Source of the DNA: an uncultured Pelagibacteraceae bacterium
GTDB taxonomy: Bacteria; Pseudomonadota; Alphaproteobacteria; Pelagibacterales; Pelagibacteraceae
Length of the DNA stretch: 64,000 nucleotides
Assembly (NCBI GenBank): GCA_902589505.1
Contig: CACITE010000001.1
Coordinates: 1 to 64,000 of the forward strand
Direction of reading: 5' to 3'
The translations under genes were made by a program, and so were the position numbers. The notes below the pieces were generated by a model. It was not told the origin of the DNA and did no database searches. It saw nothing but the letters and a program-made list of their open reading frames with translations. How positions within the stretch are numbered: position 1 is the first letter of the stretch; every line of letters begins with the position of its first letter. Below are positions 9,941 through 49,210 of this stretch, one piece after another.

Positions 9941-10963
9941 ATGAAAACTCTTAAGAGAATATTAGTTTCTTCGCTAGTTGCTATAGGTTTTTTTGCATTT
10001 AATGTAAATGCTAACGCATCTTGCGGAAAACTTGTTATCGCTGAACAAAATTGGGCATCAGCTGAACTAATGGCTAACGTTGATAAAATCATACTTGAAA
10101 AAGGTTATGGTTGCGAAGTCGAATTAGTTCCTGGAGCTACTATGCCAACTTTTACATCTATGAATGATAAAGGCACTCCTGACATGAATCCAGAACAATG
10201 GGCAAATGCAGTATACACTCCTTTGTTAAAAGCAGTTGGTGAAGGAAGATTGTTTCAAGCAAATAAAGAGCCGATTACTGGTCTTGGAGAAGGATGGTGG
10301 ATAACGCCTGGAACTGTAAAAGCACACCCAAAAATTAAAGGTATGACTGCTCTTGAAATTTTAGAACATCCTGAATGGTTTCCAGACAAGGAAGATCCGT
10401 CAAAAGGAGCTTTTGTTGGTTGTCCAGCAGGTTGGGGATGCCAATTAGCGAATGCAAATATGTTTGTTGCCTTCGAAATGGAAAAAAAAGGATGGAAGTT
10501 AATTGATCCAGGTTCTGCTGCAGGTTTAGATGGTACAATTTCTAAAGCATCAGACTCAGGAAAACCATGGTTTGGTTATTACTGGAATCCAACTTCGATG
10601 GTTGGAAAATATGGATTAATTCCAGTTGACTTCGGAGTTAAATTTGCAGGCAGAGATAATTGGGACAATTGTATAATGAAACCAGCTGGTGAATGCGCAA
10701 GTCCTAAGAAAACTGCGTGGACAAAATCAGAAGTAAATTCGATCATTACAAAAAGTTTTGTAGAAAAAGCTGGAAAAGACGCTGTGAAGTATGTTGAAAA
10801 ACGTACTTTTCCCGGTGATGTAATGAACGGAATGCTTGTTTACATGGCTGATAATCAAGCAAAAGGTTCAGATGCAGCAATTGAGTTTTTAAAACAGCAT
10901 GAAAAAGTTTGGAAGAAATGGGTTTCTTCAAGCGCTGCTAAAAAAATCAAAGCTGGTCTTTAA
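9941..10963 (+). CDS. proX: Glycine betaine/proline ABC transporter substrate-binding protein (ProX/OpuAC family)
   Basis: Signal peptide, OpuAC-like domain; good SD (GAGGAG); downstream ProW. Confidence 0.88.
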   Translation: MKTLKRILVSSLVAIGFFAFNVNANASCGKLVIAEQNWASAELMANVDKIILEKGYGCEVELVPGATMPTFTSMNDKGTPDMNPEQWANAVYTPLLKAVGEGRLFQANKEPITGLGEGWWITPGTVKAHPKIKGMTALEILEHPEWFPDKEDPSKGAFVGCPAGWGCQLANANMFVAFEMEKKGWKLIDPGSAAGLDGTISKASDSGKPWFGYYWNPTSMVGKYGLIPVDFGVKFAGRDNWDNCIMKPAGECASPKKTAWTKSEVNSIITKSFVEKAGKDAVKYVEKRTFPGDVMNGMLVYMADNQAKGSDAAIEFLKQHEKVWKKWVSSSAAKKIKAGL

Positions 10964-38222: not shown

Positions 38223-39281
38223 ATGAGTGAGAATTTTTTAGAAATTCATGGAGTCACATTTGCTGCAAGTCAGAAAAATAAAGTTGAAAATGTTACTTTC
38301 GATTTAAAAAAAGAAGGCGAAGTTGTCTGCTTATTGGGACCATCAGGAATAGGCAAAACAACTATACTTAGAACTATTGCTGGATTAGAAAAAATTGAAT
38401 CTGGAAGAATTATTTTGAAAAATAAAACTATTTCTTCTCCAGATTTTCATATGGAGCCTGAAAAAAGAAATATAGCTCTTTCATTTCAAGAAAATTGTTT
38501 GTTTCCTCACTACAATGTTATTGATAATATTAAATTTGGAGTTGATAGAAATAAAAATAAAAAATTCAATTTTTCAGTATACGATTTAATTAGTTTGCTG
38601 CACTTAGAAGAAATCCAACAAAAATATCCCCACGAAATCAGCGCAGGCGAAGCCCAAAGAGTTTCTTTGGCCCGTTCTTTAATGTCTAAACCTGATTTAC
38701 TTCTTTTAGATGAACCATTTTCAAATATAGATCAAAATCTTAAAGAAGAATTGCAGTTAAAAATAAAAAAAATTTTAAATGAGATTAATATTTCTACAAT
38801 AATAGTTACGCACGATTCGTACGAAGCTTTCTACATGGGAAATAAATGTGGTATTATCCTCGATAAATCATTAAAACAATTTGATACACCTTACAACATA
38901 TATCATTACCCAAATTCAGTAGAGGTAGTTAATTTCTTAAATAGAGGAATTTTAATAGAAGCAAAGGTAACCGGAAATGATAGTTTAGAAAACACCGAAC
39001 TGGGAACTATAAAAGGCAATTTTATTAAAAAACAATCTGTTGGTTCTACGGTGCAGCTTTTAATTCAACCAGAAGATTTAGAACACGACGATCAAAGCAA
39101 TTTAAAATTAGAAGTGGTGGACAGAAAATTTAGAGGAACAAATTTTATTTATACTCTTAGAACAATGAATAATAAGCTTATTCCAGTTTTTGTTCACTCT
39201 CACCATGAACATCAACACAAAATAAAAGACAAGTTTGGAATTAAAAGACCAATTTATATTGATCATTTAGTTTGCTTTTAA
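38223..39281 (+). CDS. Fe(III) ABC transporter ATP-binding protein (FbpC family)
   Basis: GPSGIGKTT Walker A, signature region HEISAGEAQRVSLARSL, DEPFSNID, C-terminal TOBE-like domain. Confidence 0.9.
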   Translation: MSENFLEIHGVTFAASQKNKVENVTFDLKKEGEVVCLLGPSGIGKTTILRTIAGLEKIESGRIILKNKTISSPDFHMEPEKRNIALSFQENCLFPHYNVIDNIKFGVDRNKNKKFNFSVYDLISLLHLEEIQQKYPHEISAGEAQRVSLARSLMSKPDLLLLDEPFSNIDQNLKEELQLKIKKILNEINISTIIVTHDSYEAFYMGNKCGIILDKSLKQFDTPYNIYHYPNSVEVVNFLNRGILIEAKVTGNDSLENTELGTIKGNFIKKQSVGSTVQLLIQPEDLEHDDQSNLKLEVVDRKFRGTNFIYTLRTMNNKLIPVFVHSHHEHQHKIKDKFGIKRPIYIDHLVCF

Positions 39282-39307
39282 AAAAATATCACAGTAAAAT
39301 TTTATAG

Positions 39308-39373
39308 TTGGGGTGTCCTAACAGACTGAGATTAGACCCTAAGAACCTGACTGGTAATTCAGTGAGGGAAAGT
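39308..39373 (+). ncRNA. TPP (thi-box) riboswitch
   Basis: TTGGGGTGTCC...ACAGACTGAGATTAGACCCT AAGAACCTGACTGGTAATTCAGTGAGGGAAAGT matches conserved TPP aptamer elements (GGGGTG, CTGAGA, ACCC, GAACCTGA, GGTAAT, AGGGAA). Confidence 0.95.
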
Positions 39374-39374
39374 T

Positions 39375-40829
39375 ATGAAAAACCAAATATATTATTTAGA
39401 CAATAATTCAGCCCTATTATTAATTGTTTTTGTTAGCTTATTGTTTTCATTAGTAGGAATTTTGTATTCTAGAAGTTATCAAGGTTTGTCAAATTACCTG
39501 ACGGCTGGAAGAAATATTGGAACATTTTCCTTAACGACAAGTTTAGTCGCGTCGGCTTTAGGCTCATGGATATTATTTGGACCGGCTTCTGCGGCAACGT
39601 GGGGAGGCGTAGGTTCTATCATAGGCTATTCTCTTGGCGCTGCATTTCCAATGTTGGCTTTTATTTTTTTAGGTAAAAAATTAAGAAAAGTTTTTCCTAA
39701 AGGAAACACTCTAACAGAATTTATTTATATTAGGTTTGGCAAAAAATTATTTAAATTAATTTTGGTATTATCTATTTTTTATATGTTTATTTTTTTGTGC
39801 GCTGAAGTTACAGCTGTATCGTTGCTAGTAAATTATATTTCCGGCACACCTTTATGGCTAACTTCGATATTAGTAATTACAACTACCCTGGTTTATACTT
39901 TATACGGAGGTTTGAGAGCTTCTATATTAACTGACAACATACAATTTTTTATAGTACTGATTTTATTATTTATCTCTTTTTATTTTTTATTTTCTTTTAA
40001 TTCAAACTATATTTCTTTTGATATTATTAGAAATAACTCCAGTCATTTAATAAGTTCTAAATATATTCCTAGCTATACTGCTGGAATAACTTTTTTTATA
40101 GCAGTCGCGGCTACGAATCTTTTTCATCAAGGAAACTGGCAAAGAGTTTTTGCTGCTAAAAATAATAAAATTTTAAAAAAAAGTTTATTATTTTCATTTA
40201 TTATTATTATTCCAATTGTTTTTTTTATGGGTGTAACCGGAATATTTGCTATTTCAATAGACAATAATGTCAATCCTGATTTAGCTTTTTTTTCTATTCT
40301 CTTAAAAGATAAAAAAGAATTTTTGTCAGTAATAATTATTATTTTAGCTATATCTTTAACTATAAGCACCGTAGATACATTGGTGAATGCCATTTCAAGT
40401 CTAATTGTAGTAGATGGTAAAAAAATTCTTTTAAATTTTAATCACAATGATTATTTAAGTTTTTCAAAAATCTTTGTAGTTATTTTATCTTTTGTTTCTT
40501 TTATTGTTGCTTCAAAAGGATTTAGTATTTTGTATCTTTTTTTATTAGCAGATCTTTTATGTTGTTCTGCTGTATTTACTGTTTTTTATGGATTTTATTG
40601 CGTAAAATTCAATGAAAGAAAAGCAATAATATCAATACTTTTAGGTTTATTTTTAGGTCTATTAGTTTTTCCAAACCCTGATTTTTCTAAAAGTATATTG
40701 ATAGGAAAATTGTTGTCGTTTGATATATTTCCCCAAATCATATCAAGTTATTTGCTTTTCTGGTCTTTTTTATTAGCAACTCTTGCTCCAGTTATTGTTA
40801 TAATAAGATATGATTCCATTAAAAGATGA
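39375..40829 (+). CDS. thiV: Sodium:solute symporter family transporter under TPP riboswitch (ThiV-like, putative HMP transporter)
   Basis: SSS family topology (LTAGRNIGTFSLTTSLVASALGSWILFGPASAA); directly downstream of TPP riboswitch. Confidence 0.8.
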   Translation: MKNQIYYLDNNSALLLIVFVSLLFSLVGILYSRSYQGLSNYLTAGRNIGTFSLTTSLVASALGSWILFGPASAATWGGVGSIIGYSLGAAFPMLAFIFLGKKLRKVFPKGNTLTEFIYIRFGKKLFKLILVLSIFYMFIFLCAEVTAVSLLVNYISGTPLWLTSILVITTTLVYTLYGGLRASILTDNIQFFIVLILLFISFYFLFSFNSNYISFDIIRNNSSHLISSKYIPSYTAGITFFIAVAATNLFHQGNWQRVFAAKNNKILKKSLLFSFIIIIPIVFFMGVTGIFAISIDNNVNPDLAFFSILLKDKKEFLSVIIIILAISLTISTVDTLVNAISSLIVVDGKKILLNFNHNDYLSFSKIFVVILSFVSFIVASKGFSILYLFLLADLLCCSAVFTVFYGFYCVKFNERKAIISILLGLFLGLLVFPNPDFSKSILIGKLLSFDIFPQIISSYLLFWSFLLATLAPVIVIIRYDSIKR

Positions 40830-46747: not shown

Positions 46748-47896
46748 ATGAACTTGTCATTAAAAAAAACAAACTCTCTGGGGCTAAATAAGAAACCCCA
46801 AGACACGAAAGTGGTGGTTGCAATGTCAGGTGGTGTAGATTCTTCTACAGTTGCAGGGCTAATGAAAAAAGCAGGATATAATGTATTAGGCATTACACTT
46901 AAACTTTACGATGATGCTAAAAATTCAAAAGAGAGCAGACAATGTTGTGCGGGCCAAGACATTCTAGACGCAAAAAAAGTTTCTCAAAAATTAAATATTG
47001 AACACAAAATTTTATACTATCAAAAAAGATTTAAAAGAGATGTTATAGATTCATTTATTAATAGTTATGTATCTGGCGAAACACCCATCCCATGTGTACA
47101 ATGCAACCAAACAGTAAAGTTTAGAGATCTATATTCTTGCGCAAGAGAATTAAAAGCTGATGCATTGGTTACCGGACATTATGTTAAAAGAGTGCAAGCT
47201 AATGGTAATGCGGAAATGTATAGAGCTGTTGATTTAACAAGAGATCAAAGTTATTTCCTTTTTGCGACTACACAAGAACAGCTAAATTTTTTAAGATTTC
47301 CTTTAGGCGATATTGAAAAAAAAGAAACAAGAAAAATTGCACTTAATCTTAATTTAAATGTTGCTGATAAGCCAGATAGCCAAGATATTTGCTTTGTTCC
47401 AAATGGCGATTATGCTTCCGTGATTCAAAAATATAAACCAGAATCGTTTAGAAAAGGGGAAATTTTAAATATAAATGGAAGTGTTATAGGAAAACACAAC
47501 GGGATCATTAATTTTACTATTGGACAGAGAAAAGGCATTGGGATATCTCATGAGGAGCCATTGTATGTAATAGACATTTTAGCAAAAGAAAATAAAGTAA
47601 TTGTCGGTAACAAAAAATATCTTTCTATAAGTAAAATTTACTTAAAAGATGTAAATCTTTTAAGTAATATTGAAAAGGACAATGAAAAAATATTCATAAA
47701 AGTAAGATCAACTGGAAGACTAATTAAAGCTAAAATATTTCTAAACAAACAAGATGCTGAAGTAATTTTAGAAGAAGAAGAATCGGGTATATCTCCTGGA
47801 CAAGCATGTGTTTTTTATTCAAAAAATAAACTTGGGGATAAAGTTTTGGGCGGGGGCTGGATAACGAGAACTGTAAACAAATATTTATCCACATAA
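46748..47896 (+). CDS. mnmA: tRNA-specific 2-thiouridylase MnmA
   Basis: [59 protein letters not shown]. Confidence 0.97.
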
Positions 47897-47944
47897 TTAA
47901 TTCACAAAAAAAAACAACCAAATAGTGATTTAAAATTTAATCAT

Positions 47945-48136
47945 ACTTAGTTAGATTGGTAGTTGACTTAAGAGGCAACTCTTAACTGGCCAGGTAAGGA
48001 AAGACCGAGAGGTTCAAGCTTACAGGGCAGAAAGCCCAGCAAAGTAGCGCTTAACATAGCAGGGCGGCGGGTTCGGCGGTAGCGCCTACAACGACGAACC
48101 AAAACTTATGTTCATACACCTTCGGGTGTGTGAACT
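47945..48136 (+). ncRNA. Candidate structured non-coding RNA, family not identified
   Basis: GC-rich island in a non-coding gap between convergent genes; hairpins TTAAGAG-GCAA-CTCTTAA, GGGC-AGAAA-GCCC, GGCG-GTAG-CGCC, and GTTCATACACC-TTCG-GGTGTGTGAAC followed by T-rich TTGGTTTTTAT. Confidence 0.65.
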
Positions 48137-48142
48137 TGGTTT

Positions 48143-49210
48143 TTATCTCCAAAGCAATCTACTTAATAAATAATAGCAAAGTAAAAAGCTAAAATAGTTC
48201 CATTCTAGCGTATGTTTAAATCCTGTACTTGGATCCCCAAAAGCTAAAATTGTGAATGAAACAATAGTGCCAAGTAGCACGATTGCTACAAAAGTAATTT
48301 TTATTTTAAGAATTAAAGGATTTATATATTCTTTTAGCTCTGCTTTAAATTTAAACAAATTTTTAGTCAAACTAATTTGAGCAAACACTTCGAAAAGAAT
48401 AAATGAGATTATTATTAATTTTCTTGCCTTACTAAACAATTTTGAATCAATATCTAAGGCTAAGAAAGATGCATGTAATATTAAAAAAATACAGGATAAT
48501 ACTCCTAAATAAAAAAAACTTTTAGAAAACTTTTCTAATACATTTTTGTTTTTTAATTCATTAAACAGATTTAATGTGTTTCTCCAATACAAAAATAATA
48601 ATAAGCTGCTTAAAATGATTAAAGATTTGAAAATATATGTGGCAGGAAAAAATCTGGCCGTTCTACTTATTGATACTTCTCCATAAAAGTAAGGGTTTTT
48701 GACCTCTACAAAACCTGATTTATTGTCGTTTTTGGTTTTTAATAATAACTTTTCTAACCAATTAAATTTTGTCAAAAAAGAATAATAAAATTTGTGATTT
48801 TTTACACACTCATTATTTAATTCTTTTTTATATACCCTTTTTATAAGTTTAATTTTATTATTTTTCTGTAAACTTGCTATTACATCAATATTTTTTGCAA
48901 AAACATCATATTCAAGATCACCTTGTCGATCTTCTATTATTTGACCATCTATAGAAATCCATTGATTATAAAATTGGTATTTTGGACAATTAGTAAATGT
49001 ATACGATTCAGTATTATTACTTACTTTTCCATATTCTTGGTGGTCGTATTCTAATTGACTCCAATCGAAGTTTGGGTAGGCAATTATGTTTAAATTCCCA
49101 ACAAATTTATATAAGAGCAAGCACGTATTAATTGCTATTAACGGAACAACAAACGAAACAACAGCATAATTCTTTATCTTTTTAACGAATTCAGAACCAA
49201 AAGATGCCAT
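48143..49210 (-). CDS. Hypothetical multi-TM membrane protein
   Basis: 355 aa with an N-terminal TM segment and a C-terminal TM cluster; no family recognised. Confidence 0.6.
   Translation of the reverse strand: MASFGSEFVKKIKNYAVVSFVVPLIAINTCLLLYKFVGNLNIIAYPNFDWSQLEYDHQEYGKVSNNTESYTFTNCPKYQFYNQWISIDGQIIEDRQGDLEYDVFAKNIDVIASLQKNNKIKLIKRVYKKELNNECVKNHKFYYSFLTKFNWLEKLLLKTKNDNKSGFVEVKNPYFYGEVSISRTARFFPATYIFKSLIILSSLLLFLYWRNTLNLFNELKNKNVLEKFSKSFFYLGVLSCIFLILHASFLALDIDSKLFSKARKLIIISFILFEVFAQISLTKNLFKFKAELKEYINPLILKIKITFVAIVLLGTIVSFTILAFGDPSTGFKHTLEWNYFSFLLCYYLLSRLLWR

Follow-up and report, generated by a model that had tools for sequence, protein, structure and literature searches.

Several conserved noncoding RNAs of bacteria came to light in environmental DNA, among them the large RNAs ROOL, GOLLD, and OLE, some of which assemble by loop-loop contacts. 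IMES-2 (Rfam RF02035) is likewise a conserved bacterial noncoding RNA, but it is much shorter and unrelated to these in sequence. It was reportedly described by Weinberg et al. in 2009 from marine environmental sequences, with no function given, and it is said to be very abundant in ocean RNA samples. In the literature found, no function has been assigned to it, and one paper names it as a contaminant of environmental origin in a squid assembly. Among RNAs of known function, 6S RNA (RF00013) resembles IMES-2 in being an independent RNA gene of similar length, but its architecture differs and there is no sequence match between the two. IMES-2 is thus already catalogued as a compact structured RNA from ocean DNA. 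Added here are its host family, a terminator, a conserved upstream element, four gene contexts, empty sites, and a predicted kissing loop between hairpins P3 and P4.

The locus lies in a stretch of 64,000 nucleotides (the window) from an uncultured Pelagibacteraceae bacterium. A preliminary description, made from the sequence alone, had pointed to a GC-rich island between convergent genes and proposed a structured, noncoding RNA on the plus strand of a Pelagibacter-like genome. Each of these points is correct, and all the sequences it quoted are found on that strand. The GC content is 0.44 in the island and 0.2-0.35 around it in the window. On the left, mnmA (+), the gene of a tRNA 2-thiouridylase (Pfam match PF03054), ends at 47896; on the right stands a convergent ORF (48143-49210, -) which has no Pfam match and looks like a membrane protein. 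This ORF adjoins IMES-2 in most genera, and its stop codon abuts the T-run of the terminator.

The fold of the island beats 200 of 200 dinucleotide shuffles (z -3.47). When the whole window was scanned against Rfam 15, the sole match was IMES-2, with an E-value of 4e-38 and all four hairpins in agreement. The match spans model positions 1-141 of 141, and its 146.5 bits lie far above the RF02035 gathering score of 54.7 bits. We regard the identification as an IMES-2 RNA gene as practically certain, and no difference in kind was found between the window RNA and RF02035. The preliminary description had left the family unrecognised, which was wrong: the Rfam scan that it suggested supplies the name, and a new RNA family is ruled out by the same match. 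It was right that the locus is not tmRNA, RNase P, SRP, or 6S RNA. The window scan returns IMES-2 only at the locus, with no match there to RNase P RNA (RF00010), tmRNA (RF01849), or small SRP RNA (RF00169). A permissive Rfam scan of 601 bases around the locus gave, beyond IMES-2, only chance-level matches. The features of the locus are collected in Table 1.

Table 1. Features of the IMES-2 locus in window coordinates. Cells are alignment cells of the 51 homologues.
Feature	Position	Strand	Evidence
Upstream element CAAC-N5-AGTGAT	47915..47929	+	72/72 loci
Candidate -10 region by spacing, weak here	47947..47956	+	TATGAT-like in many relatives
IMES-2 RNA core, full length	47961..48102	+	RF02035, 146.5 bits, E 4e-38
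P1 hairpin, GNRA loop (GCAA here)	47968..47985	+	100% of cells paired, 4 pairs with double changes
P2 helix (47986-47998 with 48019-48030) and small apical hairpin CC-GAGA-GG	47986..48030	+	Covariation
AAA linker, P2 to P3	48031..48033	+	Invariant in 51/51 sequences
P3 hairpin, loop AGCGCT at 48046-48051	48034..48065	+	Lower helix: 6/6 counted pairs with double changes
Predicted kissing-loop contact, P3 loop 48047-48051 with P4 loop 48081-48085	48046..48086	+	Covariation
P4 hairpin, loop AGCGC at 48081-48085	48070..48100	+	98% of cells paired, 7/8 pairs with double changes
Intrinsic terminator: 11-bp stem, UUCG loop (48110-48135), T-run	48110..48142	+	Pattern scan

The covariation check that had also been suggested was run on 51 homologues, aligned by sequence only and 42-95% identical to the window copy, and it uncovered many compensatory changes. 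RNAalifold predicted 33 pairs on this alignment, 27 of them with compensatory changes. With the loop contact included, the structure comprises 39 pairs, 29 of which show double changes, and 94.3% of cells are paired; when the partners are slid, pairing falls to 33-42%. Double-change cells number 376 in this structure against 108 in shuffles, and none of 500 shuffles is as high. In P2, 95.4% of cells are paired and 9 of 11 pairs carry double changes. The P1 loop is GNRA in 45 of the 51 rows as aligned and GCAA or GTAA one column later in the other 6, and the apical loop of P2 is GAGA in 40 rows. The invariant unpaired bases are the AAA and loop positions; conserved unpaired loops and joints of this kind are typical of tertiary packing.

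The hairpins listed in the preliminary description fared unevenly against this structure. Those with the GCAA loop and with C(UUCG)G are right, the latter being the terminator found by the pattern scan, but the proposed GGGC/GCCC and GGCG/CGCC helices are not real. In GGGC-AGAAA-GCCC the two arms come from successive helices, one being the 3' strand of P2 and the other the 5' strand of P3, and hence form no conserved helix with each other. GGCG-GTAG-CGCC is the tip of P4, where the letters AGCGCC are kept in only 14 of the 51 homologues; its GTAGCGC portion is one half of the kissing-loop contact.

The P3 loop reads AGNNCU and the P4 loop is the complementary AGN'N'C(U); a terminal U in the P4 loop adds a sixth pair. 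The P3/P4 combinations include AGCGCU/AGCGC, AGCACU/AGUGCU, AGUGCU/AGCACU, AGUACU/AGUACU, AGUUCU/AGAACU, and AGAACU/AGUUCU, and the changes go both ways across different genera. Across the alignment 88.6% of cells are paired in this contact, compared with 2-59% when it is slid. There are 30 double-change cells against 7.5 in shuffles, a level that 0 of 500 shuffles reach, in counts that ignore phylogeny; the slid versions have 0-16. In some lineages neither loop is self-complementary, and the conserved contact is therefore that of P3 with P4, whether intramolecular or joining two molecules. The nested structure line of RF02035 does not hold this contact. The covariation supports the prediction that the P3 and P4 loops kiss.

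The surroundings of the core are also conserved. In all 72 loci with enough upstream sequence, the upstream element ends 28-32 bases 5' of the core, against 0.25 in shuffles. Since the pattern was written from these same loci, more weight falls on how little its distance to the core varies between unrelated contexts. Variants with CACG, GAGAT, and GCGAT occur. The exact pattern has one match in the window genome, ahead of IMES-2, and this uniqueness speaks against a promoter element shared with other RNA genes. Matches away from IMES-2 in other genomes lie in, or ahead of, unrelated genes, and none was seen 5' of the two rnpB genes examined. The element is probably a -35 region or an activator site of the RNA's own promoter. 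TATGAT-like hexamers, one mismatch being allowed, occur in 11 of 56 non-redundant loci some 12-14 bases 5' of the core (shuffle 95% level: 5). In many loci such a -10 falls about 17 bases after the upstream element; it is weak in the window copy. Of the 72 loci, 61 have a terminator-like hairpin within 95 bases after the core (0.25 in shuffles); in most of the other 11 a hairpin and T-run can be seen as well, though outside the thresholds. Transcription would start from this promoter a few bases upstream of the core and end at the terminator, giving a transcript of about 190 nt.

IMES-2 is present once in the window genome and as a single copy in each positive genome. In a class-wide sample it was found in 3 of 386 genomes, all from the family of the window genome. 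An order sample gave 146 of 298, and among the matches listed all belong to the same family. Within that family, 134 of 196 genomes and 12 of 14 genera have it. About a third of the sampled family genomes, complete ones included, lack IMES-2, which is therefore not universally essential. When complete negative genomes were searched with a model built from the 51 homologues, nothing significant was found. Incomplete negatives in the window's own genus lack mnmA too, so these absences may only reflect gaps. In two nearly complete genomes of genus g3 (G450 and G463) an mnmA match was not found either, perhaps because of contig gaps.

The identity of the family follows from the positions of other RNA genes. 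In one IMES-2-negative genome (G407), tmRNA lies at 10219-10520 (+), RNase P RNA at 39051-39405 (-), and SRP RNA at 493568-493660 (+). The intergenic regions reported for 'Ca. Pelagibacter ubique' HTCC1062 place tmRNA at 10302-10518 (+), RNase P at 38796-39447 (-), and SRP at 493521-493664 (+) (Meyer et al. 2009, PMC2704228, Table 1), where the tmRNA overlaps an annotated thyX (PMC2704228). Because these coordinates coincide, the family is SAR11, and the strain without IMES-2 is HTCC1062 or one nearly identical to it. The RNA thus occurs in these marine bacteria without coupling to one gene: it was found in SAR11-family genomes only, in four contexts.

In the first context, seen in most genera, IMES-2 lies between mnmA and the membrane-protein ORF (-), 47-95 bases after mnmA and on the same strand. 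In g3 it lies between a tyrosine recombinase (-) and an ogt-type methyltransferase (+), in g2 beside a staphylococcal-nuclease-like gene, and in g281 between a SelO-like and an RmuC-like gene. The recombinase, methyltransferase, and nuclease were named by Pfam, the SelO-like and RmuC-like genes by eye. Empty sites, without the RNA, were also detected, some of them in complete genomes. The recombinase, ogt, and a small ORF are there in G207, G486, and G529, but the GC-rich island is not; in G416 the gap is longer and the island is likewise absent. G207 also has mnmA beside the membrane ORF with no RNA.

The first context alone would suit a cis element, acting for mnmA as its attenuator or 3' UTR, or for a downstream gene as its leader. 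The preliminary description had likewise proposed looking for homologous gaps downstream of mnmA; these exist in most genera, but the RNA has three further contexts, and mnmA is for this reason not its functional partner. In other genera the RNA has a different location but retains the upstream element and terminator, the next gene is usually on the other strand, and mnmA without the RNA is common. A cis element of mnmA is contradicted by the other contexts, and a cis role of any of these kinds is extremely improbable. As the four neighbourhoods are unrelated, function is independent of a neighbour. IMES-2 is not a leader, a 3' UTR, or mobile cargo.

The case for mobile cargo, or for an attachment site, begins with g3, where the recombinase (PF00589, E 4e-19) lies 150-350 bases from IMES-2 and the empty sites are clean. 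However, the recombinase is single-copy in 21 of 22 family genomes tested, whether or not they have IMES-2, and in most genera it is far from the RNA. Since it is present irrespective of IMES-2, it is a neighbour and not a carrier, and a mobile element beside an integrase was rejected. The recombinase (L023:198-1151, with homologues L121-L141) is resident in nearly all family genomes and is possibly of the Xer type. The other point in favour is an IMG/VR contig (L005, IMGVR_UViG_3300012518_000315) that carries part of the RNA, with an RF02035 match of 87 bits at L005:2042-2149. This copy has lost P1: it starts abruptly at the 3' strand of P1 within a Dam methylase frame and runs off the end of the short contig. 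It was the sole IMES-2 copy found in 2.9 million viral contigs, further patterns included. Two other contigs (L004 and L006) fall below the Rfam threshold, and annotated phages gave IMES-2 matches at chance level only. The viral copy is likely an assembly chimera, and a phage-borne IMES-2 was rejected on these grounds. A mobile origin of either kind is hardly credible.

RNase P RNA, tmRNA, and SRP RNA are present in genomes with and without IMES-2. As both coexist with it, IMES-2 is not a replacement for tmRNA or SRP RNA. In the window genome RNase P RNA lies away from IMES-2 (G000:C6:7827-8187), and tmRNA is missing from the assembly, which is 75% complete. The stretch GGAAAGACCG at 47997-48007 resembles the conserved GGAAAGTCCG of RNase P RNA (RF00010); this short look-alike was judged to be chance. 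Within one rnpB, a model from IMES-2 homologues gives a chance-level hit of 11 bits (E 4.6). A hidden RNase P was rejected because both resemblances are at chance level and the real rnpB lies elsewhere in the same genomes.

No match to 6S (RF00013) was found in 15 family genomes, including that of the window, at E-values up to 10, while the Caulobacter and E. coli controls were positive. SAR11 has either lost 6S or carries one that is beyond recognition. Together with the similar length this raises the question of a stand-in, an IMES-2 that binds RNA polymerase where a recognisable 6S is lost. Genomes without IMES-2 lack 6S too, however, which rules out a simple swap, and a long interrupted rod with a bubble at its centre is not part of the multi-hairpin fold. 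Such a role is very unlikely.

IMES-2 is an independent, single-copy, position-independent, strongly structured RNA gene, and there is little doubt that it acts in trans. The RNA would fold into the four hairpins P1-P4, lock the P3 and P4 loops together, and serve, in trans, as a rigid regulator or scaffold that binds protein. Protein binding is suggested because the conserved unpaired bases are GNRA loops, the AAA linker, and loop-loop partners, and because no long conserved single-stranded seed is left for mRNA pairing. As a first guess at its targets, RNA polymerase or the translation apparatus may be named on account of the reported abundance in ocean RNA samples.

An independent gene of such length (about 190 nt), equipped with a promoter and terminator and found in varied contexts, is also the typical look of a base-pairing sRNA, in which an exposed stretch, presented or protected by the fold, would pair with target mRNAs, perhaps with Hfq, to which the U-rich tail of the terminator would be suited. 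Almost every conserved position, however, is paired, lies in a GNRA loop, or takes part in the kissing contact, and the unpaired joints are variable or as short as AAA. A base-pairing sRNA therefore appears unlikely. The preference for protein binding over mRNA pairing, which rests on the absence of an obvious seed, is a modest one. Taken as a whole, the best explanation is an IMES-2 gene with its own promoter and terminator, whose transcript has kissing loops and probably acts in trans by binding protein, a reading we hold with some reserve.

A more far-reaching version is conceivable but improbable: a SAR11-specific global regulator acting on RNA polymerase or the ribosome, in bacteria without a recognisable 6S, whose P3 and P4 loops, self-complementary in many species, would also multimerise the RNA. 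A genome with the RNA coordinates of HTCC1062 lacks the gene, which may be the reason that IMES-2 was not listed by a search confined to that strain. The genome positions, the carrier and non-carrier clades, the dedicated element, and the testable loop contact open the function of IMES-2 to experiment. SAR11 bacteria rank with the most abundant cells of the ocean, and IMES-2 belongs to their conserved RNAs.
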